Below are positions 1 through 52,134 of a stretch of DNA of 64,000 bases, piece after piece; within the stretch, counting starts at the first letter, position 1; each line of letters opens with the position of its first letter. The DNA is from Malassezia japonica. Lineage: Eukaryota > Basidiomycota > Malasseziomycetes > Malasseziales > Malasseziaceae. The position numbers were made by a program, and so were the translations under genes. Under the pieces are notes generated by a model, which worked only from the letters and a program-made list of their open reading frames with translations, had not been told where the DNA came from and did no database searches. Where the stretch lies: positions 637,389 to 701,388 of the forward strand of contig NC_083375.1 of assembly GCF_029542785.1 (NCBI RefSeq). The letters run 5' to 3'.

Positions 1-2826
1 CAGAAAATCAGCTTCTTTATGCGCAAAGGTGCCGACTGCCTGTCCAAGTGGGTTGGTGAGGCGGAGCGCCAGCTGCGTCTGCTCTTTGAAGAGGCCAAGA
101 ATGCACAGCCGAGCATCATCTTTTTCGACGAGATCGACGGCCTGGCGCCGGTGCGGTCGAGCAAGCAGGACCAGATCCACGCAAGCATCGTAAGCACGCT
201 GCTTGCGCTTATGGACGGCATGGACGGGCGTGGGCAAGTCGTCGTGATCGGCGCGACCAACCGCCCCGACTCGGTAGATCCCGCATTGCGGCGCCCCGGC
301 CGCTTTGACCGCGAATTCTACTTTCCACTGCCGACCAAAGAGGCGCGCCTCAGCATCCTCTCGATCCACACGCGCAACTGGGAGCCCCCGATCACCGATG
401 AGCTCAAAGAGGTGCTGGCCGGTGCGACGAACGGCTTTGGCGGTGCCGATCTTCGTGTACGTATTGTGACTGACGCAGGCATTGTGCACAGAGGCGACGC
501 TCAACGCCATTCAGCGGCGCTATCCCCAGATTTATAGTTCGTCGGAGCGCCTGCTCCTCGACCCGGCGTCGGTCGAGGTGGGCGGCCGCGACTTTTTGCT
601 TGCGCTCGAGAGTACGTCGCTAAGCTAACGCAGAAATGGTGCCGTCGTCTGCACGTTCTGCCAGCACCGCGGCCACGCCGCTGCCGGCGCACCTCGTGCC
701 GCTGCTCGGCAGCGTCGTCGATGCGGCGCACAATGTATGCCGCCGCATCCTTCCCCAAAAGGACAAGCGCTCGGCGCTCGAAGAGGCGCTTTGGGAAGTC
801 GACCCTACAGCGCTCGGCGCCATGCCCTCGATCGCTGCCGAGTCGCCGGCAGGTGCACTAGAGCGCGAGCTCCTGCAGCAATCGTTTGAAAAGGCGCGAG
901 TGTACCGCCCTCGCCTCCTTCTCCATGGGCCGGCTGGCATGGGCCAGGCGACGGCTGCTGCCGCGCTGCTGCACCGCCTCGAAGGATACAACGTCCAGAC
1001 GATTGCGGTTGCGTCGCTTTTGGGCGACAGCAGCCAGACGCCCGAGTCGTCGCTCGTGCAGCAGTTTAACGAGGCACGCCGCCTCAAGCCGAGCGTCCTG
1101 CTCGTGCCCGAGCTCGACCGCTGGCCCGTGCTTCTGTCCGAGAGTGTGCGCGAAGCGTTCTGTGCGCTGCTCGACACGCTCAAGCCCGAGGATCCCGTGA
1201 TGCTGCTCGGCGTCGCGAGCGTGCCGTTTGACGAGCTCCCGAGCGAGATCCGCGCGTGGTTCGGCATCCTGCCGCTCCACCGCGTTGCGATTCCGACGCC
1301 GTCCGAGGACGCGCGCGCCGCGTACCTCGGCGACATTGCGCGCCAGGCCGCTCGGCCGCCGTCGCAGTTTGCCGACGGTCTGCCGCGGCGCAGGCGTGTG
1401 CTGGACGAGCTGCCAAAAGCACCGCCGCAGCCGCCGCGCCAGCCGACGCAGCTCGAGTTGAGCCAGCAGACGGAAAGCGACGCGCGGCTGCTCGAGCACC
1501 TCAAGTTCCGCCTCGGCCCTGTGCTTGCCGAGCTGCGCAAAAAGTTTAAAAAGTTTACGCGCGACGTCTGGGTACGTTGTTCCGCTGACACAGGACGAGT
1601 ACAATCTTCGCGAGCTTATGGCGCAGTTTGACTGGCGCCGCGAAAAAGGCAAGGTGATTGTCACGCTGCGCTACGACAAGTCCGACCAGCTCGTCGGCGC
1701 GTCGTCCGACGAGGGTGAGAACGATGTGCCGGCGGACGTTGGCGGTAGCGACGAGGGCGCAGACGAGGACGCAGACGAGGACGCAGACGAGGACGCAGAC
1801 GAGGACGCAGACGAGGGTGCGGACGAGGATGCGGATGCCGGTGCGGACGAGGCCCCCGATGCAGCTATCGATGAGCCGGTGGTCGTGCCGGCAGACGCGC
1901 CGGCGGACGCGCTCGATGCGCCTGTCGAGGCGCCTGTCGCGGAACCTGCCGAATCCCACACGGCCGACACCGACATGGCGCCCGTGCACGAGGCGCCTGC
2001 CCCCACCGCTTCTGCCGAGGCGCCTCCTGCCGAGGCCAACGACGACTCACCGTATATCCTGCGCGACTTTACCATTTATACCATGACGTTGGAAAAGATG
2101 CAAAAGCGTCTGTACTACAACGGCTACCTTACGTGCGATGCGTTCATGGACGATATCAACAAGATCGTGTCGAATGCCGAGGAGGCACGCGAGGTCGATG
2201 CGGACCGCGTGTTCCGTGCACGCCAGATGCAGAACCTCGCGACGATCCTCCTAGACCAGTACATTGATGCGCCGTTCCGCGCCGAGTGCGAGCGCATGGC
2301 GCAGCGTGTACTTGCACGTGAAGAAGAGGCGAGGCGCACCGCCGAGCTCCAAAAGGCCGGCGAGGTGCACTCGCGGCGCCCCAATGGGCAGCGCTACAGT
2401 GCACGCAAGCAAGGCGAGGCGCCCGGCCCCAACGACCTCGTGGACGTCTCGACGATTGAGCGTGCACACAAACGCGTGCGCTCCACGTCTGCGCCTGCCG
2501 ACGCACCCGACGAGCCGGAGGAAGAGGCGCCGAAGCGGCCGCGCACCGACGACGAGCCGGTGGCGGACGCGGTACCGCCCCCCGTCCCTCCGGCGGCGCC
2601 AGCGCTGCCTGACATGTTGCTCTCCACCACGGCACAGGACGAGCTCGTGGCGATGCTTGTGCGTACTACGAATGGCTTTTCTATCGAGCAACTCGAGCAG
2701 ACCCGCGCCGCGTGCTACGACGCGATCCTCGCCCACCGCACCGCGTGGGACCGCCAGCCGCTCCTCGCGGAGCTCCACACGGTTGCCCACGCGCTCCACG
2801 AAGCGGTGCACGGTCGTAGCGCATAG
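1..2826 (+). CDS. YTA7: YTA7/ATAD2-type AAA ATPase with bromodomain, 3' part
   Basis: 5'-partial gene in frame 1 from base 1; the first Walker A lies upstream of the window. Exons 1-456, 479-611, 634-1571 and 1594-2826 (919 codons plus stop), joined by three 22-nt introns. The visible part of AAA domain 1 has Walker B IIFFDEID, the sensor ATNRPD and the arginine-finger region RRPGRFDR. The second AAA domain has a degenerate P-loop (GPAGMGQAT, no GKT), as usual in this family. A bromodomain-like segment follows (about 1600-2320), split by a very acidic low-complexity insert (1750-1860, repeated D-E-D-A). Family role: chromatin-bound ATPase acting on histone H3 and nucleosome density in the nucleus. 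The splice joins restore conserved text such as GADLR-ALCTEA and ALE-KMVPSSARS, so the models are well supported. Confidence 0.9.
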
Positions 2827-2834
2827 CACGTGAC
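2827..2834 (+). promoter_or_regulatory. E-box CACGTGAC upstream of SIS1
   Basis: A CACGTGAC octamer directly follows the YTA7 stop codon, in the 135-bp gap before SIS1. The same core occurs in two other gaps of this window (4697 and 34891). It matches the bHLH (Cbf1-type) consensus; function is inferred only. Confidence 0.4.
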
Positions 2835-2961
2835 ATGGAAGTGCGGCCGAAGGTTGTGGAAAGCGCGCGAGATCTCGCCGGGGCGGACATTGGCCCGACG
2901 TGGCACGGACTGGCGAATATAACCTCGCACTTGCCACCGACCCGCGACACGTTTCCGTATC

Positions 2962-3405
2962 ATGGGGAAGGACTACTACCAAATTTTGGGTGTGCCCAAG
3001 TCCGCCGATGACGATGCAATTAAGAAAGGTACGTCCCAACGACTAACGCGTAGCATACAAAAAGGCGGCGCTGAAGTGGCACCCTGACCGTAACAAGGAC
3101 AACGAGGCGACGGCCAAGAAGAAGTTCCAGGAAGTCGGCGAGGCTTTCGAGGTGCTTTCGGACAAGAACAAGCGTACCATCTATGACCAGTACGGTGAAG
3201 ATGGCCTAAAGGGCGGCGGCCCGATGCCAGAGGACGCGGCTGGCGGTTTCCCTGGCGCCGGTATGGGCGGCGGTTTCCCTGGCGGCGGCGGCCGCACCTT
3301 CCACTTTACCTCGGGTGGCGGCGGCAATCCGTTTGGCGGAGCCGGTGGCTTCTCGCCATCTGACCCGAACGATATCTTTGCTCATATCTTTGGTGGTATG
3401 GGCGG

Positions 3406-3442
<37 letters not shown>

Positions 3443-3499
3443 CCCGGTATGGGCGGTATGCCCGGCGGCGGCCGCAGCAGCCGTGGTGGCCGCGGTGGT

Positions 3500-3533
<34 letters not shown>

Positions 3534-4165: not shown

Positions 4166-4213
4166 AGTTCAGAGTACTGTAATATATGTAGCATCTACCA
4201 GCATGACAACTAC

Positions 4214-4625
4214 TTAGATCAGGAGACGCTCGATCTGGATGAGTGAGTGGGTGACGTACCGCAAGCTTGATCGTCTGGATCTGGCTCTGGAGCTCGCGGG
4301 CCTCGTTCGTGGTCACGCTGCAGGCGACGACCGGGCGCGACACGCCACAGGCGCGGCCGAGGGCAATTTTCGAGGGGACGAAGACGTAGGGCACATTCTT
4401 GTCCTCGCACAGCAGGGGCAGGTGCAGCACGATCTCAATCGGCTCGACGTCCGCGGTCATCACGATGAACTCGCAGATACCACGGTTGAGCGTCTTGGTC
4501 GCCTCGTTCGCACCCTTCTTCAGCTGCTTGTAGTGCGAAGCCTGCTGCACCAGATCAAGGATCTGGTTGGTAAGCGCAGCATCGGCGAGGGGGAAGGCCT
4601 TGGGGTTGACTTCGGACTCGGACAT
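4214..4625 (-). CDS. SNU13: Snu13/15.5K kink-turn RNA-binding protein
   Basis: Exons 4625-4260 and 4234-4214 on the minus strand, separated by a 25-nt intron, give 128 aa, the length of the human protein. The L7Ae-family signature [13 protein letters not shown] and the segment [16 protein letters not shown] are intact. The 7-codon last exon restores the conserved ending IERLLI. Role: binds kink-turns in U4 snRNA and box C/D snoRNAs, so it works in both the tri-snRNP and snoRNPs. Without the intron the C-terminus would read into unrelated residues, which makes the tiny intron secure. It shares a 127-bp divergent promoter with the arrestin gene. Confidence 0.95.
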
Positions 4626-4696
4626 CTTGACCTCACGACTTCGGATCACAGGTCGGTGGGACGAAAAAAGTCGCGCAGCGCTTTTTGTCCCGAGCG

Positions 4697-4702: not shown

Positions 4703-4752
4703 ATATGTGGAGGGCCTGTGCGCGGCGCTCGCATAGCCTAAAGGCGTACGCC

Positions 4753-6843: not shown

Positions 6844-6874
6844 TGGTAATTAACAGTGTACATAAGCCATAATT

Positions 6875-9490: not shown

Positions 9491-12223
9491 TTAGTCGATG
9501 TTCTTTGCCGAGCAGCAGTTGAGCTTCGAGAGGAAGCCGCCCTTGCCCTTCTGGGCGACCTGCTCGGCTTCCTTGCGCGCGCGCAGGTTGGCCTCGGCAA
9601 TGGCCTCGGGGCCCGAACCATTGGCAAGGTACGGGAAACCAGCGAGCGGCGACTTCTCCTTGCCGATTTTGCTGCCAGCCTCGGTCATGCCGCCCTCGGC
9701 GATCTGCTCGTCAAAGTCCTTCTGGGCACCCTGCGCGGCAGCCTTCTCATTGTCATCACCAGCAGGCACACCATCCTCAAGCTGTACATTAGCACCGTGC
9801 GTCAGGTCGTAGCCCTCGGCCGCAGAGCCATCGTGCGCATGCTCTTGGGGCAGCTGCTCAGCGTAGTCACCCGAGTGGTAGGCGTCCGCGCCGTATGGGT
9901 CGGTCTCCTCCTGCTCGGCGCCGTAGGCATCAGCGCCACGGGTCGCATCTTCCTGCTGCTGGTTGTAGTACGCAGCCGACTGCGCGTTGCCATCCATCGA
10001 AGGACCGTTTGCATCATAAAACAGGTCTTCAGAGCTCTGGTTCGGCGTCGACGAGTTGGTGTACAACGACTGCGTAGGACCCGACACGGCCGTCTCGGAA
10101 CGCGTCATGCTGGGGACGGAGGCGGGGACAGAGGCGGGGACGGAGGCGGGAGCCACATTGTTCGTGTCCAAGTCGCTGGACGCGACGTAGGTCTGCAGGT
10201 AGGCGAGGCTGTTGGTCGGCGGCACCTGCTCCTCGTTAATGGGGACGTTGTTGGCAAGCACGGCAGCACCAACACCACCAGCAGCACCAGCACCAGCACC
10301 GACCGCGGCATCGGTGGCGTAGTTCGAGTAGTACGACGGTTCAGTTTGCGTACCGGTCTGGTAGGCGGCCGACTGGTCGTAGCCGGTGTTGTAGGCCTCA
10401 GCGGGGTAGCCCTGTGTGTAGTACGCGCTCTGGCTGTAGTCTTGGGCCGGGGCACCGTACGCGGCTTGCTCGGGCTGGCCGTACTGCGACGCACCATGCG
10501 CATAGGCGTTCGGGTCCTGCTGCGCGTAGGCAGAAGCATCCTGCTGCGCGTAGGCAGAAGCATCTTGCTGTGCGTAGGCACCCGAGTCCTGCTGAGCATA
10601 GTTCTGGGCATAGGTGGGCTGCACAGACTCGTAGTTCTGCGCGGGCGTGTCATCCACACCCTTGTTCTTGCCAGAGATGGCCGCGTAGCCGGCCGCACCT
10701 GCGCCGAGACCAGCAACACCCGCAGCGGTGCCAGCAGCAGCACCAGTAGCAGCATCATCGGACTGCTCACGGGCAGGCGCACTCTGCTCCTGTCCCTGCT
10801 GGTTCTGCTGGTTCTGCTGAGCAGAGCCGTTGCTGGTACCTTCGCGTTCCGAAATGCGCTTCTGGATGGCCGAGCGGCCGCGGTCCTTGCCGACATCGTG
10901 CGTGATCGTCTTGCCGCTGGTCTGCTTGTAGGTCCAGTGGAAGGTGAAGTCGGGGGTGATGATGCCGGAGCGGTGGTACGTCGTCTTGGCGCGAACGACC
11001 GGGTCGAGGTCCATCCATGCAAGGCGGAGCTTCAGGGCCTGGAAGTCACGTTCGTCCTCGAGCTTCTTGTCGGAGCCGTGGGACTTGTCCCACTTCTTTG
11101 TGAGGTCCTCGTATACCTGGGCCTGCGCCATGTAGGCGTCCCACAGACGCTGGCGCTCGGGATCGCCCGGCGGGCGCGTCTTGTTCTCATTCGGCTTCGG
11201 AGGAACGAAAGTGACCTCCTCCGCGAGCTCACCACCCAGCTGTTTCTCGAGACGGTTGGAAGGGATCAAATCGAGGTCGCCTGGCTTGCTGGTAAAGTTG
11301 ATCTTGGCACGGACCGCAGGGTCAAGCATAGGCGAAATCGCCTTCCAGATGCCCTGGAAGATCCAAGGGGCGTTGTGGATGTAGAGCTTGCTGAGTGTCT
11401 CGGGGTAGTAGGCCTCGAGAATCTGCAAGATGGTCGTCAGCGAGTGCCAGTCCATGTTCTTCATGCCGAAGCCGGCCAGGTCAAAGACAATGACAATCTT
11501 GTCGTTAGGGTACGACATGAGGCAGCGGAATGACTCGGCGGTCGCAATGACGAAACGCGTCATCGTCTCGGGACCCTGCGCCTTGGCCAAGTGACGGTTC
11601 ACGTGGATGTACACAATGGGAATGAGGTTGTCCGTCATACCAGCAGCAAAGGTCTTGTTGGCCTTTCCCTGCTCTAGGTACTTGTCGTCGATCTTCGAAA
11701 GACCGAGGTCACCCTTCTCGACCAGGTCAATTACCTTGGACTCGATTCGCCATTTGATGCACTTGGCAAGCATCGCAAAGGCGCGGTGCACGTTCCACTG
11801 AGGTCAGCAGACCTAAAATTCAACGTACCTTGCGCGCACGCAAAAACTTGAGCATGATCATATCCGGCACATCGGGGCCACACAGGTACCAGAACTGGTC
11901 GTAGAATTCTTGCACACCGTGTGTCTTGAACAGCGACTGCAGAGCCTCCTGCTCCTCCTGGTGCGACTTGGCAGCCTTCGCCTTGTCCTCCTTGGATAGT
12001 CCCTGAACCTGCTCTTCGCCGCTACCAGCAGCATCGGCAATCTTGCCATTCTTGGCCTGCTCCGGATTGTCAATAACGTTGAAAAAGAGGCCCCACATCT
12101 GGGCCAGCTTCGCTTTCTGCTCCGAGGTCAAATTTCCTATTAGTTAGCCTGTAATCCTAAGCTGTGCATACCATAATGACCTGTGGCAGGCGTAATCGGC
12201 TTCACCGGTAGAGCTTCCGACAT
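9491..12223 (-). CDS. Sec14-like (CRAL-TRIO) lipid-transfer protein with long Q/A/Y-rich tail
   Basis: Exons 12223-12172, 11829-12136 and 9491-11797 (minus), with introns of 35 and 31 nt, give 888 aa. The joins restore GHYGNLTSEQ and FLRARKWNVHRAFAML, the latter a hallmark of the CRAL-TRIO N-terminal helix bundle. The lipid-binding domain follows (about residues 120-350: IPIVYIHVNRH, IVIVFDLAGFGMKNMD, LYIHNAPWIFQGIWK). It resembles the Csr1/Sfh2 group of phosphatidylinositol/phosphatidylcholine transfer proteins. The remaining half is disordered, with four VPAS units (10108-10153) and a tandem 8-residue repeat QQDASAYA (24-nt units, 10508-10605). The C-terminus ends with vicinal cysteines (LNCCSAKNID), a possible palmitoylation site. 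It shares a 178-bp divergent promoter with the acyltransferase. Confidence 0.85.
10508..10605 (-). repeat. 24-bp coding tandem repeat (QQDASAYA units)
   Basis: About four 24-nt units, the first two nearly identical, encode repeated Y-A-Q-Q-D-x-x-A octapeptides in the tail of the Sec14-like protein. Such in-frame minisatellites can vary in copy number between strains. Confidence 0.8.
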
Positions 12224-12401: not shown

Positions 12402-13783
12402 ATGGCACGGCCGCCTTATGCTGTACCAATCGCGGACCGTGCGAAACCTAATGCGCTCCTTACGGTGGTCAAAGTGGTGTCAATAGCATTTTTCATGTGC
12501 CCCACAATGCTATGTGAAATGCTTCTGGTTATTCTCTGCATGCCGTTGTGGTACGTCTGGCCCACCGCGTTCCAGACCGTGATCCGCGCGTGCAAGACAC
12601 TCTTTGTCATGTTGCTTACGCACATGTTTTCCGTCTTTGCCCTTTCGGAGATAGTCATCTCGTTTGGTGGTATGGATGGGCAATGCGTCGACGCGGAGCA
12701 GTTTGTGCAGCGCGACGCTCTCGGCCGCGTTGTCGGCCTGGATCTGCCCTCGACGGGTATCTGGGTTGGAAACCATCAGATCTATACAGACTGGGTGTAC
12801 ATGTGGTATGTTCTTTTCCTAACTCAGGTCTCTCTCTCTCTTTGCGGGCCTCGCAGGAAATTACTATATTGTGCTGAAAGAGTCGCTCCGCAATATCCCA
12901 CTGCTGGGTTATTTTATGGAAGTCTTCCAATTCCTCTTCCTCTCGCGGAACTGGGAACAAGATCAGCGCACAATGCGTGCTACACTAGACTCTATTCTCG
13001 AGACAGGGCCTAGGAAACTTGCTCTGTTACTATACCCAGAGGGGACCAATATGAGCAGGAACCAGCACCCAAAGAGCCTCAAGTTTGCCGAAAAAATTGG
13101 CCGCTGCGGTTTAAAAAATGTCCTGTTGCCGCATAGCACGGGCCTGTACTTTTGTATCAAGTCGCTACGGTCGAAACTTGATCACGTATACCTCTTGGTA
13201 CGTCTTACCTTGCTTATCGCAGGATTTCACCATTGCCTATGAAGGTGTGCAATCTGGCACGTACGCGCCCGAGTTCTTTACCATCGGTATGTTGTTATGT
13301 TAACACGCAGCCAGCCAGCTTTTCGGTGGTGTCTCCCCCCCTCGCATTCATGTCCATTGTGACTTTGTGCCGCTAGACGCAACAAGTCCCGCACTGACCA
13401 GCCCCTTATCGACTTGCCCCCACTTGGAACCACGTGTGTCTTCCAACACGGCCCCCGCGTTCGACGCGACCGAAAAGGCCGCGTTTGATAAGTGGTTAAT
13501 GGATCGCTGGGAGAAAAAAGATGCACTTATGGAGCGTTTCTACCATGAGGGCGACTTTGTCCAAGGTCGCGCTGCACTACGAGCAGTTCCTGCGGCACCT
13601 GGGTGCCAAGATGTATTTGTCCAATTTCCTCTCGTGCCCCCTTCTCTGCGGCAGGAGCTGGCCTACTTCCTCCTTATCCCCTTGACCCTGCTCCTTGCCT
13701 ACATGTATTCTACATTGGCCCGCGTGGCGTATTCCTCGCTTGCTGCCCAGATCGCGGGTGGTGCTCACGCGGAATTATTTTGA
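12402..13783 (+). CDS. Lysophospholipid acyltransferase (PlsC/LPLAT family)
   Basis: Exons 12402-12805, 12828-13197, 13223-13286 and 13311-13783, with introns of 22, 25 and 24 nt, encode 436 aa. Catalytic motif I is NHQIYTDW (NHx4D) and motif III YPEGTNMS is present. The splice joins produce the conserved segments YMWSLSLFAGLAGNYYIVLKESL and FFTIASQLFGGVSPPRIHVH. There are hydrophobic segments near residues 20-75 and again close to the C-terminus (YFLLIPLTLLLAYMYS), so it is an integral membrane protein. Family role: acyl-CoA-dependent acylation of lysophospholipids (Cst26/LCLAT1/AGPAT3-5 group) in ER or mitochondria-associated membrane. The precise acceptor lipid cannot be assigned. Confidence 0.9.
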
Positions 13784-17152: not shown

Positions 17153-17660
17153 TTAACGAGCGCTCGGCGTGTTTTCCGCCTCCGCCTTGGTCAGGGCGGC
17201 GTCCAGTGCATCAATTAGGCGGTGCGAGTCTGGGTGAGGTGGGCGACGTACCATAGATCTCTTCCTCTTGCTTCTGTAGTTGCACAAAAGAAGTCGACTG
17301 AATGAGCTCTTGCATGCGTGCAGTCAGGTCATCGTTCTCTTTCTGGAGCACGTCCATCCGCTGCAAGAGACGTACCCCCAGCACTGGGTCGCGTGGTTCC
17401 TGGCTCGCGTGTGGCGCATCCCCATTCTCTGGTCCGCCACTAGCTGCAGCATCGGCAAGTGCAAGGCAGCGATGCGGCTCGAACGAGAGCGCGGCGATGT
17501 GCATCTCGAGTGCTTGCTCGCGCCGCTCGTACGCGTCGATGATTTCTTGCACCTGGTCGCGCGACAGCAGCGTTGCATCTAGCGCCGGGGGCTCTGGCTT
17601 GGGCGGCAGGTCCGGCAGGCGCAGTTCCATGGCGCTCTGTTCGACATTCGCGGTCGACAT
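17153..17660 (-). CDS. Small coiled-coil protein, unrecognised
   Basis: Exons 17660-17252 and 17229-17153 (minus) with a 22-nt intron give 161 aa. Start chosen at MSTANVEQSAMEL; upstream in-frame codons run into the ARL8 promoter. The intron join continues a helical heptad-like run (LLQRMDVLQKENDDLTARMQELIQ... IYDSHRLIDALDAALTKAEAE), which would be cut short otherwise. It is predicted to be a soluble coiled-coil protein, perhaps a subunit of a larger assembly. I do not recognise the family. It is divergent from ARL8 with 113 bp between start codons. Confidence 0.75.
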
Positions 17661-17773: not shown

Positions 17774-18429
17774 ATGCTCGGGTTTCTGATCGAGTGGCTC
17801 CGTTCCCTCCTCTTTACGCGTTATCTTGACGTGTGTATTGTAGGCCTGCCTGGTGCGGGCAAGACGACGCTCACAAATGTGCTGGTCACGGGCCGCGTGC
17901 CCGAGCACGTCGCGCCGACGGTCGGCTACAACCTGCGACAGTTGCGCGTAGGCAACGTGCGCATGCGACTATGGGATATTGGGTATGTTGTTGTGCTTAC
18001 ACAGTGGCCAGCCGCGTTTCCGGTCAATGTGGGAGCGGTACTGCTCCGGTGTATCGGCGGTGGTTTTTGCGGTCGACTCGAGCATCCCGCTGCCGCCCGG
18101 CTACTCGACCAAAGACCAGGGCGAGTACTCTGAGGAAGAAAAGACGGCGCGCAATCGCGAGAGCGAGGCTTGGAATATTGCGGCGGAAGAGCTGCATTCG
18201 CTCATCCAGCGGCCAGCGCTCGCCGGACTACCTCTGCTCGTGTTGGCAACCAAAAATGATCTCCCGAATCCCGCTAGTGTGCAGGAAGTGATCTCGGTGA
18301 TGTACGTCGCGCTACTAACGCAGGGACCTGGCGTCGCTCAAGGACCGTGAAGTTTACTGCTACAGCATCAGCACATTCAACCAAACCAACATTGGTATTA
18401 CGATCAAGTGGCTTTGCGCGAAGCGGTGA
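17774..18429 (+). CDS. ARL8: Arl8-family small GTPase
   Basis: Exons 17774-17982, 18005-18301 and 18324-18429, both introns 22 nt, encode 203 aa. It has the G1 motif GLPGAGKTT, switch [18 protein letters not shown] (created by the first splice join) and G4 as ATKNDLP, where Thr takes the usual Asn position. The N-terminus [14 protein letters not shown] is an amphipathic helix without Gly2, as in Arl8 proteins that are acetylated and not myristoylated. Family role: lysosome/vacuole positioning and fusion through BORC, kinesin and HOPS-type effectors. About 17 extra residues rich in E/K/S follow VDSSIP, making it longer than animal Arl8 (186 aa). Confidence 0.9.
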
Positions 18430-20833: not shown

Positions 20834-21450
20834 ATGAGTCACTCTACGTCTGTTCGGCCCGCCACTAAGAAGGATATCCCTGCCATCCTTGGCTTTGTAC
20901 GTTATCTGTCCCTGAAACAATTCTAACACACTCATAGATCAGGGACCTTGCCATTTACGAAAAGGCCCTGGACCAGGTCGAGGCGACCGAGGAGTCTGTG
21001 CGTATCTCCGTCTGACTCAGCTCGAGGAGACGATCTTTAACCGTCAATACGCCCATGTGCTGATTGCCGAGCTGGAAGATGCCACGGTCGGTCCGAAACC
21101 GATCGGCATGGCCCTGTACTACTACGCGTACTCGACGTGGACGTCGCGCCGCACGCTCTTCCTTGAGGACCTCTTCGTGCAGCCCGAGCACCGCAACCTT
21201 GGTGTCGGCAAGCGCCTCTTTAAGCATCTCGGCGACGTTGCCAAGAAGGAGGACTGTCCCCGTGTCGAGTGGAACGTGCTGACCTGGAACGCGTACGTCG
21301 CGCTGCTGACCCAGACCCTCGATCGCGTTCTACAAGGAGACGCTCGGTGCCGAGATGCTCGAAGAGTGGCGCGGTATGCGTCTCGAAGGAGACGGCATCG
21401 ACCGCCTGCAGCAGCTCTCCAAGGCCGAGAAGAAGTACGGCGCGATCTGA
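20834..21450 (+). CDS. GNAT N-acetyltransferase, spermidine/diamine (SSAT)-like
   Basis: Exons 20834-20896, 20938-20997, 21021-21292 and 21315-21450, with introns of 41, 23 and 22 nt, encode 176 aa. The splice joins give ILGFIRDLAIYEK, EESLEETIF and WNAPSIAFYKETLGAE. The acetyl-CoA loop is PEHRNLGVGKRLF (R/Q-x-x-G-x-G/A). The block YYYAYSTWTSRRTLFLEDLFV plus WN-x-PSIAFYK is typical of spermidine/spermine or thialysine acetyltransferases. Likely role: acetylation of small amines. The second intron uses a GTGCGT donor. Confidence 0.87.
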
Positions 21451-22787: not shown

Positions 22788-23029
22788 CTACTGGGTATGG
22801 CTTGGTTGCACGAACAGGTCGCCGAGTTCTGCGTCAGGGAAAGTGCGTACCCGTCAGGTATCGTTGGCGCACGGCCTCGTCTAGAAACTGGGTGAGCCAC
22901 GCAACATACCATGGTCGGCTCACGCACCGCCGATGCGCGCAGGTCCGAGACGGTAGCCTCCATGTACTCATCCGGCGAGCCGTCCGACCCCTCGGACACG
23001 TCCATGCCCCACGTCTCGTCGTCGGCCAT
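22788..23029 (-). CDS. 65-residue acidic protein in three exons, unrecognised
   Basis: Exons 23029-22910, 22887-22851 and 22828-22788 (minus), joined by two 22-nt introns that both match the local intron pattern exactly. The product starts [19 protein letters not shown] and continues into a predicted helix [20 protein letters not shown]. The second intron carries GTACGC as donor and CTGAC as branch site. Two independent perfect introns and an uninterrupted frame make a real gene likely, although no family is recognised. Acidic N-terminus and helical C-terminus suggest a small subunit of a complex. It shares a 105-bp divergent promoter with PRP8 and converges on GET4 (10 bp apart). Confidence 0.72.
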
Positions 23030-27698: not shown

Positions 27699-27741
<43 letters not shown>

Positions 27742-30237: not shown

Positions 30238-31682
30238 TTAGCTTTCGTCTACGTATACAAACTCGGCACCGAGCGTCGACGTGGCGGCGAGCGTGGGGCG
30301 CAGCGCCAGCTGCGTCTGGAGGCCTACGCTCACCAGGCAGTGGTTCCAGTGGCCCTCCCAGAGCAGCGCAAGCAGGCCCGAGGCGCTCATGCGGAGCTTG
30401 AACAGGCCTTGCAGCGGGGGCTGCCGAGGGCCCAGCGGGAGCGCCGCAGGCTCTGCGGCCGCGACCGCGTGTGTGTCTGGCGCCTCGGTCGCGACGGCTG
30501 CGTGCGCCGCATCGGGCTTGGCGCGCTCGCCCTCGCTCCATGCCTCGACGCTCTCCCGCAAAGAGAGCGCGGCATCGGTGAGCGGTGCGGCCCACACGCC
30601 GAAGCGCTCGCGCAGCGAGCCCTGTGCCTCGTGCCGCTCTTCGGCCGGCGCCGAGCGCAGGCAGTACTCTGCGCCGAGCGTCAGGTCCGAGAGGTAGGAG
30701 TACACGTTCATATCGTAGCTGAATAAGATTTGCGACGTACCGGGCGCACAGCGCGAGATCCTCGTCGACCTGCGCCGCGTACGCGTAGCGCACATGGCCC
30801 ATCATGGGATTCAGCGTCGCGCTCGACACCGCGGGGAAGCTCAGCACACGCCCGCCGGCGCCATAGACCGGCCGCTGGGCGTACCGCAGTCCGAGCGAAA
30901 CTGGATCAGCCAAAGTACGTACGTCCTGCGCTCTTCTCCGCAGCGCTGAAAAAGGCCTCGGCGCCTGCGCTGAGTGTCCCGTCGCCGAGGGAAGCGGGGG
31001 GCGTGAGCGTGCGCAAGACGCGAAGGCCCCACAGCGCGTCGTCGATCGAGTAGCTATACTCGGCCGTGGTCTTGTCCGTCTGCATCTGCAGAGCCAGCTG
31101 CAGATTGGTGGTGCCGGGCGGCCCGACCTCGTCCTGCGTCGTGTCCGGCACGGGCCCCGGCGCAACGAGGCCGAGGCGCTTGGCGAGCGGCAGCAGCGGG
31201 TAGCGCGGCGCGCGCGAGAGCGCGGTCGCGAGTAGCTGCCAGTGCGGCGCGATGCGCATTGCCGCGACGCCTTCTGCGTAGGTCGACGGGACGTGGAAGC
31301 AGCCATAGAGGAGCATGTCGCGTGCGTCCCTGCTCGGTGCGGCGAGCGGCACGCCGTCAAACGCAAACGGGGTATCCGGGGTGAGAAACTGCGCGCCGTA
31401 CGTCATGCGGCGCGCCGAGCGCTGGACACACGCCGTGTCAAACGGCATGTGCGCCGCGACGTACGTGTAGCCCACGGCGCCGCTCAGCGGCACGGTCAGC
31501 AGCCGTGCGGAGGAGACCATCGTCGGCGTCTTGGTCGCGGCCGAGGAGAGCAGCACACCATTCGGAATCGCAAAGTCGACGAGGCCCGAGCAGGCGCTCA
31601 TCAGATGCGTGTACGACTGCTGCTCGTTCCATCCCGTTGCGCGGTAGTACTCGCGCAGGAGCACCGTTGCTGCATCGTACAT
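30238..31682 (-). CDS. MDM10: Mdm10, mitochondrial outer-membrane beta-barrel (ERMES/SAM)
   Basis: Exons 31682-30923, 30900-30741 and 30718-30238 (minus), both introns 22 nt, encode 466 aa. Family marks include the N-terminal YYRATGWNEQQSYTHLM and LVDFAIPNGVLLS, and, across the splice joins, SAGLSLGLRY and ALCARYDMNVYSYLSDLTLGAEY. The C-terminus alternates polar and hydrophobic residues as expected for beta-strands, ending in EFVYVDES. Role: tethers ER to mitochondria in ERMES and helps beta-barrel assembly in SAM. An Ala/Glu-rich insert (about residues 350-380) is unlike yeast. Only 36 bp separate its start codon from the FAR11 stop upstream. Confidence 0.9.
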
Positions 31683-31718: not shown

Positions 31719-34700
31719 CTACGCGCCAAAGATGTGCTCCACCTCGTCGATGCCGCCCGGCTGCGGGGAAGGCAGCGGGGCCTCGGGGATAGCCAGAGGC
31801 GATTTCGGTGCGGCTTCCGGCGGCGCGGGCTCGTCGCTCTGCTCGGTAGTGAGCGCGTCTTCGACCAAATCTTCCATGTTCCAGTGCAGGATCGGGCGGA
31901 GCTGGGCGGGGCTCGAGTTGACGCGGCGGTCGATCGCGGCGGTGTCCGTGTGCGACCAGGAGACGTGGCGGCCGCCCTTGGGCGACGTCCCGCTCGCGTT
32001 CGGCGAGGATGCAAGGACCCGCATTTCTCGGGGACTCAGGTGCTCCCAGTCATTCCGGTTCTCGTCCTCGCGCTCGGCCGGCGTCGCGGGCGGCTCGTGC
32101 ACGGCGGGCGCCGAGGGCGTCGGGGACCGGCCCGGCACGACGTCCTGTGCCTCGTCGTCGGCCACGTGCTGTGCGAGCGCCTCGAGCGGGTCGGACGCCG
32201 CGTCAAACATCTCGCGCAGGACATCCTCGTAGACGTCCAGGTAGCCCTCGACCGCGTCGTCGGAAATGTAGCGTCCCGGCGTCCCCGCGGCGGTGGGGCG
32301 GTTGCCGAGCGGAAACGCCTCGCGCTCGAACGCGACGCTCGCGTCCATCGGATGCGCCGACTCACTGCGTGCGTCGCTCGCGGTCGACGCCGTGCGCCGC
32401 ATGCTTTGCTCCTCACCCGCGCCCGCGATCGCCGTGCGCGCCGCGTAGCGCGTCTGGTTGTAGAACTGGATGAGGGTGCGCAGTGTCTGCTCTTCCGGCA
32501 GCGACGCCTCGACCTCAGCGTCGATATCGCCGCCGCCCAGCCAGTCGTCGCGCAGCGTGGGCTTGCAGAGGAGGTAAATCAGGGTGATGATACGCATGTT
32601 GGACTGGCGCCACTTGCGGCCGCAGAACGGCACCTGGCTCTTGATGAGCTTCAGCACGTACTGCTGCAGGCCCGTGTGCTGCACACGCAGTGTCCGCTTG
32701 AGGATCGCGGCGCTTTTGTACTGCACCAGCAACAGGATGCGGTGCGCTTTGTGCTTGCAGATCTTGTGCAGAATCTGCGTGAGGTTCGCCGTGGTGGAAA
32801 AGTTGCGCCACGAGTACGCCGAGCTGCTCGGCGGCGCGCGCGACTCGGGGTCGGGCGGCGTCGCGTGCGACAGACGCGGGGGATCGTCGGGAAACTGGTC
32901 CCAGACGTCGCCGATGCGCAGCTTGGCCGTCTCGAGGATCGCCTGTGGCGACGCGGGCGACGCATTGCGGCTGCTCACCAGCCGGCAGTACGACAAGAGG
33001 CCAAACGGCTGGACCTCGCAGCGCCAGCGCACAAACTGGTTCACCTCTTGCAGGCCAAAGATCTTGAGGATGAGGAGGAGGATGTTGGAGTCGAGCATGA
33101 CCTGCGCGAGGTACTCCATCTTTAGTACATGGCTCGCCTTGAACCAGCGCAGCGACAGGAGCAAGAGTGCGCTGATGCCCTTGTTTAGGATCTCGCGGTG
33201 GCGCACAATGTCCAAGTCCTCGAGCGTGGGATCCGGCGCTTTTTCGGACGGGATCCCTTCGCCGACCGCACGCGAATAGGCGCTGTTTGTCCCGCCCGAC
33301 GTGGTCGTCGCGAGCATGAGCTTCAGCAGGACGATCACCGCGCTCTGCATCTCGGGCAGCACCGCGCTGTAGATCTCGTCGACGCGGCGCAGGCGCTCGT
33401 CGTCCGCCTCGCTCGACGCGCCGTCCATCGGGGTGGGCGGCAGCTGCATCGCCGCGAGCGACTGCTGCAGTGCCTGGACCGCCGCGTCGGACTCGCGGTG
33501 GATGAGCGACGGCGCCTCTTTTGCGCCGCCCTGCATCTCGGCAAAGAGCTGCTCGCGGACGCAGCACGTCTGCCACACGCCCGTGTCAATGTACAGGTGC
33601 CCGCCGTAGAGCTGCAGCGCCTCTTGGATGCTCGCCGGCGCCGCGTCGCGCGCGGCGATCCCGGGCGTGTACGGGAGGACAAACGGGCGGTTCTGGTCCG
33701 TCTGGAACTTTTGCTTGCCCTGCTTCAAAGCGGGCGGCCCCGCGTTTGCGCGGTTTTCCTGGCGGGGCGCCTCGCTGCCGGCCGGGTCGTCGGCGTGCGT
33801 GTGCCGCCCTGGGAGCGGCCGCGTGGCCATGGCGAGCTCGTCGGCAGCGTTTAGGTTTTCCATCGCGCGCGATGTGAGGAGCGTCGGGTACTTTGCCGCG
33901 AGCTCTGCGCGGAATTGGCGCACGTCCTCGGGCGTGGTCGGCGAGCGCAGCGCATCCTTGGTGCGTGCGCCGAGTCCCTCGCGGTACCGCATGCGCGTCT
34001 TGGCGCTGCCGATCTCCTTGGTCCCGCCGAGGGCCGCGAGGAGCGATTTCCAGAGGAGCAGTACGAGCTTCTTGACCGGAAACCCCTTGATGCTCTTTTC
34101 CCGGAGATTCGCCACGAGAGAAAAGAGAAACACGGGAAGCGGCGGCTCGAGCGCCATGAGCGACTCGCCGAGCACCTCGTCGCCACGCAGCATCTCGAGG
34201 ATCGCATAGAGCTGCGCAAAGTGCACCGTCACCTCGACGTTGATCTCCTCGAGGTACTCTGCCTTGGCATCCGGCGTGAGCAGCGGCTCCTGCCCGTCCG
34301 GCGCAAGATAGTCGGGCAGCGCACTGAACCAGTCGTGCTTCCAGCACGCGCGCTTGCACGCCGCAAAGATATCGTCCACGCCGCCGAGCTCGAGCAGCAT
34401 TTCGGCGTTTGTGCGCACCCAGCGCATCTGGTCCGCGTCGCTCTCGGCCTCGTCAAACGAGCCCTGCAGATGGTATAGCAGCGCACGCGACGCACGCAGG
34501 CGCTGTGCCGGATCGTGCAGGTCGAGCGCGGCGAGCAGGCGCTGCAGCACCTGGCGGCGCGCGCCGGGCGCGAGGCCGGCCCACGTCCCTTGTGGCGCCT
34601 CGAAGCCCCAGTGGTCCGCACACCACTCCTGCCAGCTTGCACGGTTCTCGGCAAAGATGGGGGCCTCGACGTACGAGTAGAACTCTTCCAGCTCGTTCTC

Positions 34701-36375: not shown

Positions 36376-38567
36376 TTAGCATACAAACGCGATCGCGGCT
36401 CCATCGGTCGTCAGGGCGCCGCCACTCGGCGCCCAGCCATAGGCAGGGACGTGCGTCGTGGCGCGGCCCAGGGGGGCGAGGAGCGCGTCGGCGGCCGTGG
36501 GGGAGGCGTCGGCGGCGTGCACGAGGCGGACGTGCAGCGCTTGCGCGAGGTACGACGCAAAGAGGGGGGAATGCGCATCGGGCGCGTCGGGCGCGTCGGT
36601 CGCGCGCAGCGTCGCGACGCCGCACGCGGTGCCGAGCACAGCGACGTACGCAAGGCGGTACACACACTCGACATGCTCGTGCACAAACGAGCCGTCCACA
36701 TAGGTCGGCACATTGTACGCGTCCTCCTCGTCGTCGGCAGGACCAAAGCGCGAACGCCCGGTGCTCGCGGTGAGCTGCCACTCGACCGCAGCGTGCTTCG
36801 GCAGGGCATCCGGCGCAAGCTGCACAATGAGCAGAGGGACCTGCAGGGGGCTGCGGCACTCGCCGAGCCACGCCGTGTCGTCGCTCTGCTGGTGCGCATG
36901 CGCGCTGTCGTCGTCCGCCTCGGCGTGCCACACCGCGCCGACCGCGCGGCTGAGCGAGTGGGCATGGCGCGTAGCGATCCAGCACACGCCCCCTTCTACG
37001 TACCCCTCTGTCGGCGCATAGCTCCATTCGCGCACGGCAAGCACGATGCGGCGCACATGCTGCAGCGCCAGTGCAACCTGCATCGCAGGCTCGGGCACAA
37101 CGTCGAGCGTCGTGGGCTCCATGCCAATCTGCCCGGCAATCCACACGCGGTGGTCGGAATTCACCGCTTGCGAGTAGGGGCCAATGTTGGCCGGTGCCCA
37201 GTAGCTCCGGCTCTGCACATGGAGCGTGCGCCGCCCGGGGGGCTGGGTATCACGGTGCGCGACGGCGTCCAGCACCACACGCACGCCGCCGTCGCCGAGC
37301 GGCAGCGCGACGCACGCGCGCGAGGGGGGGGCGGCGCCAAACTGGGCGCAGTAGATCGCATTGAGCGTGGGAAAGAGCGCCTGCGAGGCCAGGTACACGT
37401 TCATGTGGCAGATATCCGTCATGGCGTAGCCGTGCGCCGCGAGTGTCGTGCGGAGCCTTTCTAGGGCGCTGCGCACCTCGTCCTCAAACGACGGGCCGGT
37501 GCCGCTCACGTCGCCGACCGCGATCCATGCGCCGCGCTCGCACGACTGCACCGTGGGACGGCACGGCAGCGCGGCGGGGAACGTCGAAAAGGGGCCTTGG
37601 TCTCCGCCATGGGCCACCTCGTAGGCCTGCACGCCGAGCGGGTCAAGAAGGGGTGGCGCACGCATGCTCGCATGCACGGCCTCCTGCCCGAATGACCCCG
37701 GCTCCTTGTCGCAGAGCACCGCCTCGGGGACACGCAGATAGCTCACGCTCGCAAACGCCGCGTCCGAGTGGATCACCGTCTCGGTGTTGCGCCTGCGTCA
37801 GTACAAGGTACATACAGCTCCACTCGCTTCACAAACAGCGGCGAGTCGAGCGAGAGGGTTTCGTACTCGCCGCCCTCGCCGCAGACGTGTGCGCCGTACA
37901 AGGCGTGCTACATGAGATGCGCAACGTACCAGATTCTCGAGCTTCGGCTGTAGCTGCTGCAGCGTCTTGCCCAGGTCGCGTTCCGTCAGGCCGATGCCCG
38001 CGACCTTGAGAATCACCGCGCAGAGGCCCGACGTATTCATTTCGTGCAAAAGATGCGACTGATTCCGCTGCCAGAGGAAGGCGAGCGGCTGCATGAGCAG
38101 CTCGGGGCGCAGCGCACTAGGTCAGCACAGCGACATACACATGCTCGACGCGCACGCGCTGGTAGTTGGACAGGATCGCGCCGACGCTCACGCCTTCTAC
38201 ATCGGGGTGGTGCGCTTTGACGGTGCACAAGAGGCGGTACAGATCCTCGGTCTCGTCGCCCGCGCTCTTTTCTGTTGCTTGCGGGTCGCGCGCTCCGTAC
38301 ACGGCGCCTTGGTTCAGCGGCTCGCCGGTGATTTCCGCACGGTACAGGGGCAGGCCCATCGCGGCGGCCACCGCGTGCACCGCATCGTGCCCGACCGTCT
38401 GGTACATGTACGAATCAATCTCATCTGCGTTAGCGTCAAGGCGACGCACCCTTGCCGCTGGGTGGCGCAAGCGTCGCCAGTGCCACGATCTCGTGGCCCT
38501 GCAGGACGCAGTGGCACAGATTAAAGCAGCTGTCCTTGCCGCCCGACAGCAGCCCCACGACCTTCAT
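36376..38567 (-). CDS. DPH6: Dph6 diphthine-ammonia ligase with RidA-like tail
   Basis: Exons 38567-38450, 38424-38139, 38116-37930, 37907-37816 and 37792-36376 (minus), with introns of 25, 22, 22 and 23 nt, encode 699 aa. The N-terminal ATP-pyrophosphatase domain has SGGKDS at residues 8-13. The joins restore APPSGKDEIDSYMYQTVGH, VEHVALRPELLMQPLAFLWQRN and the family-specific GAHVCGEGGEYETLSLDSPLF. The C-terminal half has two YjgF/RidA-like domains (WIAVGDVSGTG...; WIAGQIGME...), as in fungal Dph6. Role: last step of diphthamide synthesis on elongation factor 2. The four small introns in the first third are all frame-disrupting if retained except in combination. Confidence 0.93.
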
Positions 38568-40971: not shown

Positions 40972-40972
40972 T

Positions 40973-42731
40973 CTACTGCGTCGTTGCTGGGCGCTCTTCC
41001 GCATCGGCCCACGGGAGGACCGTCGGCCAGTCCCATGCATGCACGAGGGTGCCCGCAATGGGCATTTTGATGCGCTCGCCACGGATCGGCTCCTCTTCGA
41101 GCTGCTCGGCCTCTTCGGCGTGCAGCGCACGGCGCTGCGCCGCGAGCTGCGCCGCAAGCGAAAAGCGCAGGCGCTCGAGCGCAGGGTGCAGAATCGAGTT
41201 GCCGCCGCGGTAGCGGTTGATCATCACACTGAGCGAGTGGCGGTGCTGCACCGACATCATGGTGCCGGTCATGAGCGTGCGGCTCGCCGCCATGCCGTGG
41301 AACACACGCTCCGTGTGGTGGTCGTCGAGCACCGCAGGGGGATCGCCACTGCGCGAAAAGACGCGCAGCAGCGGCGCAGGCGCCACGACACGCACACCAT
41401 TGTATAGCTGCGCCGGGAAACGATACGACATCGTGGGGAACAGCGCGCCGGAGGGCGGCGCCGTCGCAACGACGCGCCCTTGGGGGTTGATCGGCGTAAA
41501 GACGGGCGCCGCATGCGCGCTCTCCTCCATGTTGCCCTGCGCGCTGGGGATCGTAATCAGCAGACTGGGGCCGGGCACCCACGCGGGCGACGCTGGGTGC
41601 AGATCCACACAGCCGTGCATCGAGTCGTTCGGCTCGTACCGCTGGGGGTCCACAAAGCAGTGCGCCAGCCGCCGCCGCTTGACCGCCCCATCGATAAACG
41701 CCGCCGAGTTCGGATTGACGTGGTGGGAATGCGTGAGGGAAGTGAGGTACACCGGGGTCGGCCGGGCGCTCTCCTCGGCGAGCTCTTCGGTGGCATGCAT
41801 AAACGCGTCGAGCGACGAGCGTTTCTGCGCTTTTTCGGGTGCGGGGCCGTTGCGTGCCGCGTCGAGCGACGGGAAGGACGTCGCGGGCGGCGCGCCTTCG
41901 ACCAGCGACCCGGTATACACAGGCAGGCGGCGGCGCCAGATGCGGCGGATGCCGTCCTGGTCGAGCTCGGTGGCGGCCGTGGGAAGGATCACAGGCGGGG
42001 GGCGCGGCATCGGCGCGGGCCCCGGCGCCTCTTCCTTGGCCGGTTCGGGCTCGATGTGCATTTCCTCTCCGGGAAGCGCGTCCAGGTCTGGAAACGCAGG
42101 GAGGAACGGGGGGATGTACGATGGGGTATCGGTCGTCGTTTCAGCAAGGGGCTCTTCGGCCTCGACATCGTCTGCGTGCGGGGGTGTCTCGTCCCAGACC
42201 CACGCATCCTCTTCGGCCTCGTCGATCGCGCGGCGCACTTCGAGCTCCGCACGCATTCCGTCCGAAATAGGGAGGTAGTGCAGCTCCGACACGCTCTTCT
42301 TTTCGCCGAGCGACACATCTGGGTAAGTATCAGTACGTACATTCGGCGAGGCGCGCGCGCTGCTTCAGCACCGGCTCGGGGATGAGCTGCGAAAGGTCGC
42401 GCTTCCACACGCCTTCTTCGTCCGCCCATTCCTTGAGCTCGGTCAGCGCGCCAAAGCCCATTACATGCTCGAGACTCATCTCGACGTCCCACGCGGTAGG
42501 CTCTGTGCGGTTCGCCGCCTGAGCGCTCTCGGCGCTGGTGCGCGCAAGCAAAGCAAGAAAGCGCTGGACGAGTTCGCCGAGGAGCACGCACGCATTCGCG
42601 CTCCCCCCGTTGAATCCAGCAGCAGACAAAATCATAGGCACAGCCGTATTCAGCTGCGAAAACGCAAAGTCGGCAGCCGGCCGCGTCTGCGGCGCGACCT
42701 TGCGCAGCGTCCCGCTGGCGTCCTTTGCCAT
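40973..42731 (-). CDS. TAF8: TAF8-like TFIID subunit with histone fold
   Basis: Exons 42731-42341 and 42318-40973 (minus), with one 22-nt intron, give 578 aa. The N-terminal bromodomain-associated histone fold spans FSQLNTAVPMILSAAGF...YAequivalent AANRTEPTAWDVEMSLEHVMGFG. It is followed by the TAF8 C-terminal signature PSYIPPFLPAFPD. The rest is low-complexity with a KRRR cluster likely to act as nuclear import signal. Role: pairs with TAF10 in the TFIID core. An in-frame ATG at 42773 would add 14 residues but lies only 5 bp from the upstream gene's stop; the ATG at 42731 has the better context (gccATGGC), so it is preferred. Confidence 0.8.
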
Positions 42732-45316: not shown

Positions 45317-45640
45317 GTTGCTGCCAGGTTTCTGGTGTGAGCAGCGCGACGTACAGTATCCCTAAGGGGCTCGTAGAAGGCTGGAGCAATGGAAACCTTG
45401 TGAGCCATGACTCTTGACCACTACGGCTGCACTAAGCAAGGTGCTGCGCTGCACTGGGTAACTCGCTCCCTATAAAATCTAGGCACCGTATTGTTGAATC
45501 GCGCCATTTGATTGGCGACAACTGCCCCACAAAAACGAAAGCCGCCACTGAGCCGCACGAGTCGCGAATGCGGGGCGATTAGGTCAGCATCGGTCGCGAA
45601 CCGCGCATACGCCGGGCGCTGTACGTGGGGAGTGGAGGAG
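45317..45640. other. 324-bp intergenic stretch, no gene
   Basis: IML2 promoter and aldolase terminator region between two minus-strand genes. It contains TTAGGTCAGCAT near 45579, one base longer than the TTAGTCAGCA promoter motif found elsewhere, and a TATAAAAT-like stretch near 45471. No coding or RNA gene is supported. Confidence 0.5.
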
Positions 45641-49049: not shown

Positions 49050-49277
49050 ATTTCTAAAGAGCCTCAGGTCAAAGGCGCAATACGATGTTTACGATACTGC
49101 ATAATGTATTGTAATCGGAATAACACTTGGCTTTCCAATCGTGGTCTTTATATGATATGAACATGTCCTAGGATTGAAAGCCACGTTCTTTCTTGGTCTT
49201 ACAAGCAGCATAGTAATGTTGCTAGGAATATAACGTGAACAGTAACATTTGAATCATCTAGGACATTTCAGGTACAT

Positions 49278-50408: not shown

Positions 50409-50445
50409 GATTGTATGTATAGTAGAGACTGTATTCAAGGTCCCC

Positions 50446-50453
50446 TTTTTATA
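50446..50453 (-). promoter_or_regulatory. TATA box of the TauD-type gene
   Basis: TATAAAAA on the minus strand, 38 bp upstream of the ATG. Confidence 0.55.
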
Positions 50454-50663
50454 TTTCCCGTGCAACAGCCCACTTTCAGCCAAAGCACCTCACCTAAGTA
50501 CCTATGTTGCAACATGTACCCCGCAATCACGACAAACTTTAAACATCGAACCTCCACATGATGCAAATCTCGATCCATAACGTCACCTAATCTCTTGCGT
50601 GACAGGCCAGCTGACAATAAGTAGTGGACCATATGAACATGGATGTATCTTTAGATTTCTTCA

Positions 50664-52134
50664 ATGGCTTTTAGGAGAGGCGATATTAAACGAGTTGCTG
50701 TTATCGGCGCTGGGCCCTCAGGTGCTATCGCACTAGACAGCCTTGTCCGTGAGCGAGCGTTTGATGACGTCCGGGTGTTTGAACGCCGTGAGAAAGCTGG
50801 AGGAGTATGGTAGGTCGTATTTCGCTCATTATAGGATTGATGATGGTCTACTTGTAAAGCAAGGCCTTCCGACTGGAATCCACCGTGAACAAGACATCGA
50901 CCCTCCACTCATTCCCCCAGCGTCAGTTCCGGCCAAGACGGAGAAATGTGATCAAAATCGTTATGATTCCACTCCAATTTATTCGTACTTGGAGACTAAT
51001 ATTGATGCACACGTAATGGAGTTCACTCAGGAGCCTATTCCAGACCAGCCAACGCCAGAATCAATCGCCAGGTTCGGGCCTAATACTCCCTTCCGTCATC
51101 ATTCTGTGATTCAAAAATACGTGGAGGGCCTATTTGAGCGCAATGACTACCAAACGCACGTTGAATACAATGTGACAGTTGAAAGTGTTGTCAAGCAAGG
51201 AAATGAATGGGTATTGACACTTCGCCGATCCGAACTCGAGCACGATTTCTGGTGGCAGGAGCACTTCGACGCTGTTGCCGTATGCTCTGGGCATTACAGT
51301 GTCCCATTCATCCCTGACATTCCTGGGCTGTCGGAAATGGCTTCGTTATATCCTGGTAGCGTGGAGCATACAAAGTCGTTCCGCCACAGAGAAGATTATC
51401 GCAATTTGAACGTCGTCATCGTCGGTGGAAATATTTCGGCCATGGACGCTGCCTTTGACATTGTGGACTGTGCGAAACACGTCGGAGTAGCAATGAGGGG
51501 GAAGCCACATCCATATTTCACGGATACAGTTTTCACTCACCCTTTCATTTATCGCCACTCGGGTATAGATCACATCGTGCCTGAGGATAGAAGTGTTCAT
51601 TATCTCGATGGGACTATCCAGTCAAATGTGGACAAAATCATACTCGGAACTGGATATAGATTCAGTCTCCCATTCTTACAGCAGAAAAATGTCCTCAACA
51701 ATCGTATTCATGGAATATTTCAACACGTTGTTGACATCCACGATCCCTCCTTGGCCTTTATTGGCGCAGTCTCTGCCGGTCTGACATTCAAAACATTTGA
51801 ATGGCAAGCTGTCCTTGCGAGTCGCTTATGGTCCGGGCGTTGTGCTTTGCCTAGCACCGAGGAACAATACAAATGGGAACAGGACCGTGTCAAAGAAAGA
51901 GGAGACAGTATAAAGTTCACGGTCCAATATCCCGATTTTGAAGAGTACTTCAATACGGTGAGGGATTTGGCTGGGAACGAAGGCCCGGGTCGAAAGCTTC
52001 CTAAATTTGACCACTCTTGGGAAGAAAGATTTAATGCATGCATAAAGTTGCGCATTTCTCGGTGGATCGCGGATATCGAAAGAGCCCACAAGGCAAAGAG
52101 CGACGCACAAGACCAAAAGTACCTTCATTTATAG
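50664..52134 (+). CDS. Flavin-containing monooxygenase
   Basis: Exons 50664-50809 and 50835-52134 with a 25-nt intron encode 481 aa. The FAD-binding Rossmann motif is VAVIGAGPSG near residue 10, and the join gives EKAGGVWIDDG, the conserved GGxW of FMOs. The FMO fingerprint reads YPGSVEHTKSFR (F-x-G-x-x-x-H-x-x-x-Y/F-like), and the NADPH motif is VVIVGGNISAMDAAFDI. Role: oxygenation of a nitrogen- or sulfur-containing small molecule. It is the only gene right of 46.6 kb in which I find an intron. It is divergent from the TauD-type gene (255 bp) and convergent with the next oxygenase (189 bp). Confidence 0.87.

Follow-up and report, generated by a model that had tools for sequence, protein, structure and literature searches.

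Introns of Malassezia japonica are probably compacted to two minimum distances around the branch site

How short a spliceosomal intron can be, and which factor limits it, is an open structural question. It is raised by a 64,000-nucleotide (nt) stretch of Malassezia japonica DNA, here called the window, which forms the end of the 701,388-base contig C6 (positions 637389-701388) in a genome of 8,433,779 bases and nine contigs. An earlier note on this DNA had placed near-uniform 22-nt spliceosomal introns in it, with a locked internal layout, and had proposed a spliceosome tuned to one geometry. Malassezia introns have been described as very short (PMC7426719), and the annotated introns of M. restricta have a reported mean and median of 37.2 and 30 nt (PMC9241646). 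Our analyses make it quite probable that the introns are of the GT-AG, U2 type and have been compacted to two minimum distances, with an acceptor side that is one composite signal and with U2AF65 acting mainly as a bridge.

Introns of 22 nt in the Window and in the Genome

The pattern GTAYGY-N7-CTNAY-NYAG matched the window 17 times; 100 dinucleotide shuffles averaged 0.02 matches, and no shuffle had more than 1. In all 17 matches the branch adenosine is base 17 of the intron, 5 nt before the last G, a placement fixed by the pattern itself. This number equals the earlier count of 22-nt introns in the window, and all ten intron coordinates that had been listed proved exact. When the acceptor was loosened to NNAG, the pattern matched 2646 times genome-wide (1359 plus 1287), against 9 (7 plus 2) for the reversed pattern. 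Within the window the loosened form had 18 matches; the eighteenth (32640-32661, minus strand), which ends in AAG, falls within a reading frame that has no introns and probably codes for protein. A relaxed scan of the window returned five intron candidates of 25 nt, as many as had been claimed, and three of 23 nt, where two had been claimed.

Of the 17 window introns of 22 nt, 12 have their spliced junction covered by a match to Pfam or PDB. This bears on the alternative that the matches are not introns but a recurring coding or regulatory 22-mer motif, which would suit the match at 32640-32661, one of the 18, with its position inside an open reading frame. However, a gene search blind to the motif picks the same boundaries, conserved proteins span the joins, and a metagenome protein that was left unspliced (P0020) runs out of frame in the GNAT gene and stops within GET4. 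We regard a non-intron motif as extremely improbable.

Gene Search Without a Branch Motif

Because counting by pattern would be circular, we ran a blind gene search in which neither intron length nor the branch motif was imposed. The coding model was built from the long reading frames of a 264-kb sample (the window plus 200 kb of contig C1, the source of all blind-search introns), and the Viterbi path could include introns of 10-100 nt, with only a GTRNGY donor and a YAG acceptor demanded. It contained 85 introns with the required GT...AG ends that restored the reading frame, 34 of them 22 nt long, whereas the controls gave 27 introns (reversed donor), 56 (wrong acceptor) and 30 (both altered), none of 22 nt. 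Many of the longer introns of the blind run are probably false, as the controls gave similar numbers there. CTNAY stood at the identical place in 34/34 of the 22-nt introns, with base 17 as the branch adenosine; positions 14, 15 and 17 were C, T and A, and positions 18 and 20 were pyrimidines, although the search required only position 20. The run's single 21-nt intron lacked CTNAY and was not counted. The description of these elements as spliceosomal, near-uniformly 22 nt long and with the branch adenosine at base 17 was thus borne out. So was the absence of a polypyrimidine tract, for which the layout leaves no room.

Over the 264 kb, 119 introns were predicted, of which 103 with the branch motif and a length of at most 45 nt were kept and 16 were dropped. 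Just over half of those kept (56/103) are 22 nt. By frame, 73 have lengths of 3n+1, 24 of 3n+2 and 6 of 3n, so the lengths do not all leave remainder 1 on division by three. The earlier assertion that retention always shifts the frame fails, given introns of 23 and 24 nt and a class of 21 nt, a length divisible by three. Most 5′ splice sites read GTACGT, with an unusual C at +4 in 72 of 99 introns; the others have G (15), T (11) or A (1) there. The choice between A and U at this position has been tied to METTL16 and SNRNP27K (PMC10581693).

Two Minimum Distances and a Class of 21 nt

We described each intron by two distances, d1 from the 5′ G to the branch adenosine and d2 from the branch adenosine to the last G. 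CTNAY is carried by 64 of the 69 blind introns of at most 34 nt. Among these 64, d1 is 16 in 40, 17 in 12, 18 in 3, 19 in 5 and larger in 4, and in none is it smaller; d2 is 5 in 49, 6 in 10, 7 in 4 and 13 in 1. The gap between branch site and acceptor, which had been called fixed, therefore does have its mode at 5, but it is a floor with a mode, with values from 5 to 13. Genome-wide, introns with CTNAY and GTACGY donors were no commoner than in the control at d1 values up to 15 (17 matches versus 24), and tiny introns of 15-16 nt like those of Stentor were accordingly not seen within that set. At d2 of 4 there were 42 matches versus 2 in the control. Two minimum distances describe the layout better than a single fixed geometry: d1 is at least 16, and d2 is at least 4, usually 5.

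At d2 of 3 there were 31 matches versus 1 in the control, and we inspected 22 of the 31. Use of this AG was rejected: a YAG stood exactly 3 nt further on in 20 of the 22, another 5 nt further on in one, and one had neither. The near AG appears to be skipped in favour of the AG at d2 of 6, a choice that frame alone does not decide, 20 and 23 nt being equal modulo 3.

The 42 matches at d2 of 4 make up the 21-nt class, which is rare, spread across contigs C1-C9 and absent from the earlier note, and which refutes 22 nt as an absolute minimum. We fetched 20 of the 42; one came without downstream sequence, and the best flanking frames fitted removal in 17 of the other 19, an agreement that fits retention too because 21 is a multiple of three. 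The joined proteins are informative: a TatD-family protein aligns with TATDN1 (PDB 8efg) across the join without a gap, through GECGLDFDR, and a RAD51C-like join runs through DTEGS, in a weak match (20.8 bits). Further joins fall in what we take to be motifs of a HAD phosphatase, an ORC4-like Walker A and an S1 nuclease. If retained, the 18 introns that we translated would introduce a stop in 4 and add residues without a stop in 14. The base before the branch adenosine is C in 37/42 introns of this class and in 21/75 of the 22-nt class (Fisher p 1.7e-10). Over the 42 places, the introns nearly always end in CTCACCAG. One of the matches (C8:266885-266905) overlaps the genome's METTL16 match.

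We propose that compaction would run until d1 reached 16 and d2 reached 5, rarely 4, the smallest values that the machine would accept, and that an intron with both distances at the floor would be 22 nt (or 21 nt) long. There is no polypyrimidine tract because the branch site almost touches the AG, and the acceptor side would form the single composite signal CTNAY-N-YAG (CTNACNCAG as composite RNA). SF1 would read the branch motif and U2AF35 the AG that follows two or three bases later, while U2AF65 would remain chiefly as the protein bridge between the two, its RNA-reading face partly decayed genus-wide. We infer that base 17 serves as the branch nucleotide and that mechanics set the floors, and likewise that U2AF65 no longer has to bind RNA. 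With thousands of its introns at these two minima, the fungus would offer a natural measurement of the limits.

Components of the Splicing Machinery

Of 17 splicing components searched for in the genome, 13 were found, Prp8 among them. The U2 and U6 RNAs are present with the standard pairing sequences GUGUAGUA and ACAGAGA, respectively. Protein matches, with query boundaries checked, comprise U2AF35 (60% identity), U2AF65 (37%), SF1 (46%), Slu7 (46%), Cwc25 (45%), Isy1 (50%), Yju2 (67%), METTL16 (35%), Prp18 and U1-70K. The N-termini of Cwc25 and Isy1 look ordinary by eye beside the human sequences. A loss of the second-step factors Slu7 and Prp18 was considered and rejected, both having genome matches.

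These matches bear on whether the spliceosome was rebuilt for one geometry and lost the factors that serve longer introns. The sharp wall at d1 of 16, the mode at d2 of 5, the genus-wide substitutions in Prp8 described below and the four components not found would all agree with that. Set against it are the matches to U2AF35, U2AF65, SF1, Slu7 and Prp18, the coexistence of introns of 25 to 34 nt, and Cwc25 and Isy1 N-termini that look conserved by eye, unlike the report for Stentor (PMC9505925). We consider a rebuilt spliceosome improbable. The two minimum distances thus replace the single geometry of the original proposal, of which a plausible part is retained: judging from the sequences of the U2AF65 RNA face and of some Prp8 sites, the machine may have changed to match. 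SF1 has an ordinary-looking KH-QUA2 region by eye.

Changes in U2AF65

A U2AF65 search returned 111 proteins, from which we chose for comparison 36 rows of Basidiomycota other than Malassezia; the set also held 18 Malassezia or Malassezia-like rows, six of them named, and seven non-basidiomycete rows. The RNP stacking positions, six in all (human 152, 197, 199, 262, 302 and 304), are each aromatic in 36/36 of the other basidiomycete rows. In the same order, they are aromatic in 0, 2, 2, 6, 1 and 6 of the six named Malassezia, and in 4, 9, 8, 18, 4 and 18 of the 18 Malassezia and Malassezia-like rows. The lost aromatics are replaced by many different residues, while core F202 is kept, as are, in the six named Malassezia, the U2AF35-binding ULM (an LWD-type motif, with its W in 6/6) and the RxF motif of the UHM. 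The fraction changed is 0.72 at the six RNP positions, compared with a mean of 0.39 over 92 columns of RRM1-RRM2 that are conserved elsewhere, a modest difference (permutation p 0.02). On these alignments, U2AF65 may have ceased to read a polypyrimidine signal that intron shrinkage removed. If it no longer reads RNA, two of its jobs, RNA reading and protein bridging, would be seen separated.

Changes in Prp8

Prp8, the spliceosome core, is itself encoded in the window by an intronless gene (23135-30235, plus strand; 2366 amino acids) with seven Pfam Prp8 domains and PDB Prp8 matches. We compared it with 38 chosen rows from outside Malassezia, in which 1169 of 2321 columns hold one residue in at least 97% of rows. 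The window protein differs at 23 of these 1169 near-invariant columns, and about 13 of the 23 differences are genus-wide. Twelve positions were followed in 114 other rows and seven Malassezia rows (this one, two named, and four at 94-100% identity, one of which is identical here). I1512C, T1521C and N2026A occur in 7/7 Malassezia rows and 0/114 others, and position 1916 is Q in 7/7 Malassezia rows (E1916Q), where the 114 others have E (113) or D (1). The Gln codon 1916 (28880-28882, plus strand) aligns with yeast 1960, a match given by PDB coordinates, and with human 1888. In yeast, the change E1960K is known as prp8-101 and weakens the use of uridine tracts. Among viral contigs there was no Prp8 relative.

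Weighing the Changes in the Machine

Several observations count against the account given here of two mechanical floors and a U2AF65 that mainly bridges. The introns are known from sequence, from which splicing in the cell is deduced, and the count at d1 of 15 or less concerned one donor form and one branch motif. The U1 RNA was not found in the genome by Rfam or by two patterns, and U1C, SNRNP27K and SPF45 gave no clear match, results that do not amount to absence. RRM1-RRM2 of U2AF65 evolves fast in Malassezia as a whole, its RRM2 retains two of three aromatics, and a second U2AF65-like gene could exist in the genome. The ascomycete Emmonsiellopsis (P0241), one of the seven outside rows, has L, C and I at positions 199, 262 and 302; such loss is therefore not special to Malassezia. 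In Prp8, positions aligned with two other known prp8 sites (1609 and 1834) are unchanged, and the coincidence at yeast 1960 could be chance. A Paramecium row (P0022), likewise from a short-intron lineage, agrees with the majority residue at 11 of 12 followed positions, 1916 (E) among them, and the genus effect in Prp8 is inseparable from common descent. Finally, the floor could stem from selection for robust splicing instead of mechanics, considering the 15-16-nt introns reported for Stentor (PMC9505925).

Part of this evidence would equally suit real short introns with an unchanged machine, their shortening being due to small-genome deletion bias alone and the changes in U2AF65 and Prp8 to unrelated lineage drift. 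Malassezia genomes are reported to be small, with very short introns (PMC7426719), the splicing factors found look ordinary and the RNP signal is modest; Emmonsiellopsis lacks some of the same aromatics, and Paramecium and shared descent weaken the case from Prp8. But drift of this kind does not sit easily with six positions aromatic in 36/36 other basidiomycete rows, or with losses to varied residues beside a conserved ULM, UHM and core F202. We give unrelated drift somewhat less than an even chance. Our preferred reading, compaction to two minimum distances, can also be put in a stronger form, in which polypyrimidine reading has been abandoned, U2AF65 is an RNA-blind scaffold between SF1 and U2AF35, Prp8 has changed to match across the genus (the residue aligned with yeast 1960 included), and some 2600 introns record the true minima of 16 plus 4-5 nt with otherwise standard parts. 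That stronger form is tentative, and we think it rather unlikely in full.

Comparison With Known Short Introns

Short Malassezia introns and the 3′ geometry of Yarrowia are already known. Other Malassezia share the genus and the short introns, with reported annotated medians of 30 nt in M. restricta and 40 nt in M. arunalokei; in the consulted portions of these reports, neither a 22-nt mode nor a branch geometry nor a change in U2AF65 is described. A literature search, mostly of titles and abstracts, found no description, for Malassezia, of the mode at 22 nt, of the two floors or of a 21-nt class. The partial loss of U2AF65 aromatics across Malassezia is new, with the proviso that the literature search did not cover this change.

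Yarrowia lipolytica is the closest to M. japonica on the 3′ side, with one nucleotide between the branch and 3′ motifs, that is, a d2 of 5, reported for 72.5% of its introns (PMC13309789), and likewise without a polypyrimidine tract (PMC2483917). M. japonica shares this fused branch-acceptor arrangement (d2 of 5 in 49/64, no polypyrimidine tract). Yarrowia introns have been called rather long (PMC2483917), whereas M. japonica introns have reached the floor on the 5′ side as well. The type B introns of Trichomonas are also uniformly short (23-25 nt), with the branch site near the acceptor (PMC12316389), but T. vaginalis is reported to have 24 of them, compared with the 2646 pattern matches here. 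In Stentor, introns of 15-16 nt likewise have a nearly fixed branch adenosine 5 nt before the end; it is base 10 or 11 there and base 17 here, and Stentor is described as having no strong branch consensus and non-conserved Cwc25 and Isy1 N-termini, which look ordinary in M. japonica (PMC9505925). The view that the M. japonica introns are among the shortest holds beside reported lengths of 15-16 nt (Stentor), 18 nt (Bigelowiella) and 23 nt (Trichomonas).

Other Introns and Genes of the Window

Plus-strand introns of 22 nt whose joins are covered by protein matches occur in five genes. In a Yta7/Abo1-type AAA gene, 457-478 (frame, and a PDB alignment gap-free across the join) and 612-633 (frame and PDB alignment) are supported in this way, as are 12806-12827 in an acyltransferase gene and 21293-21314 in the GNAT gene (frame and Pfam for both). 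In the Arl8 gene, WDIGGQPRF reads unbroken over the join of 17983-18004, and a protein match runs over that of 18302-18323. GET4 (21552-22777) has 21808-21829 and 21977-21998, each with a protein match over the join. On the minus strand, frame and Pfam support 30719-30740 and 30901-30922 in MDM10, and 37908-37929 and 38117-38138 in a diphthamide-synthase-family gene. The five 22-nt introns without Pfam or PDB coverage of the join are 1572-1593 in the Yta7/Abo1-type gene (plus), 22829-22850 and 22888-22909 in the same small unnamed gene (minus) and 42319-42340 (minus), all by frame only, and 17230-17251 in another small unnamed gene (minus), by motif and with a weak gene model.

Among other lengths, a 31-nt intron in a CRAL/TRIO gene (11798-11828, minus) and a 23-nt intron in the diphthamide-synthase-family gene (37793-37815, minus) have frame and Pfam support. 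Introns of 25 nt lie in a DnaJ gene (3029-3053, plus, within the Pfam DnaJ match), in the acyltransferase gene (13198-13222, plus, frame only) and in the diphthamide-synthase-family gene (38425-38449, minus, frame and motif). Motif only marks the candidates of 25 nt at 4235-4259 (minus) and 50810-50834 (plus), and those of 23 nt at 20998-21020 (plus) and 45332-45354 (minus; d1 of 16 and d2 of 6).

The tiny introns also carry a warning for annotators. Relatives have 32 residues between MNEQGS and KTNAEF that are missing from the NCBI GET4 protein of M. obtusa (P0002), and the gap adjoins the place of the tiny introns in M. japonica. We suspect an annotation error here, a mis-called tiny intron. 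The window closes in 382 bases of GGATTA repeat (63619-64000), that is, the telomere repeat TTAGGA and not TTAGGG; TTAGGA has also been reported as the telomere repeat of M. furfur (PMC10100673).

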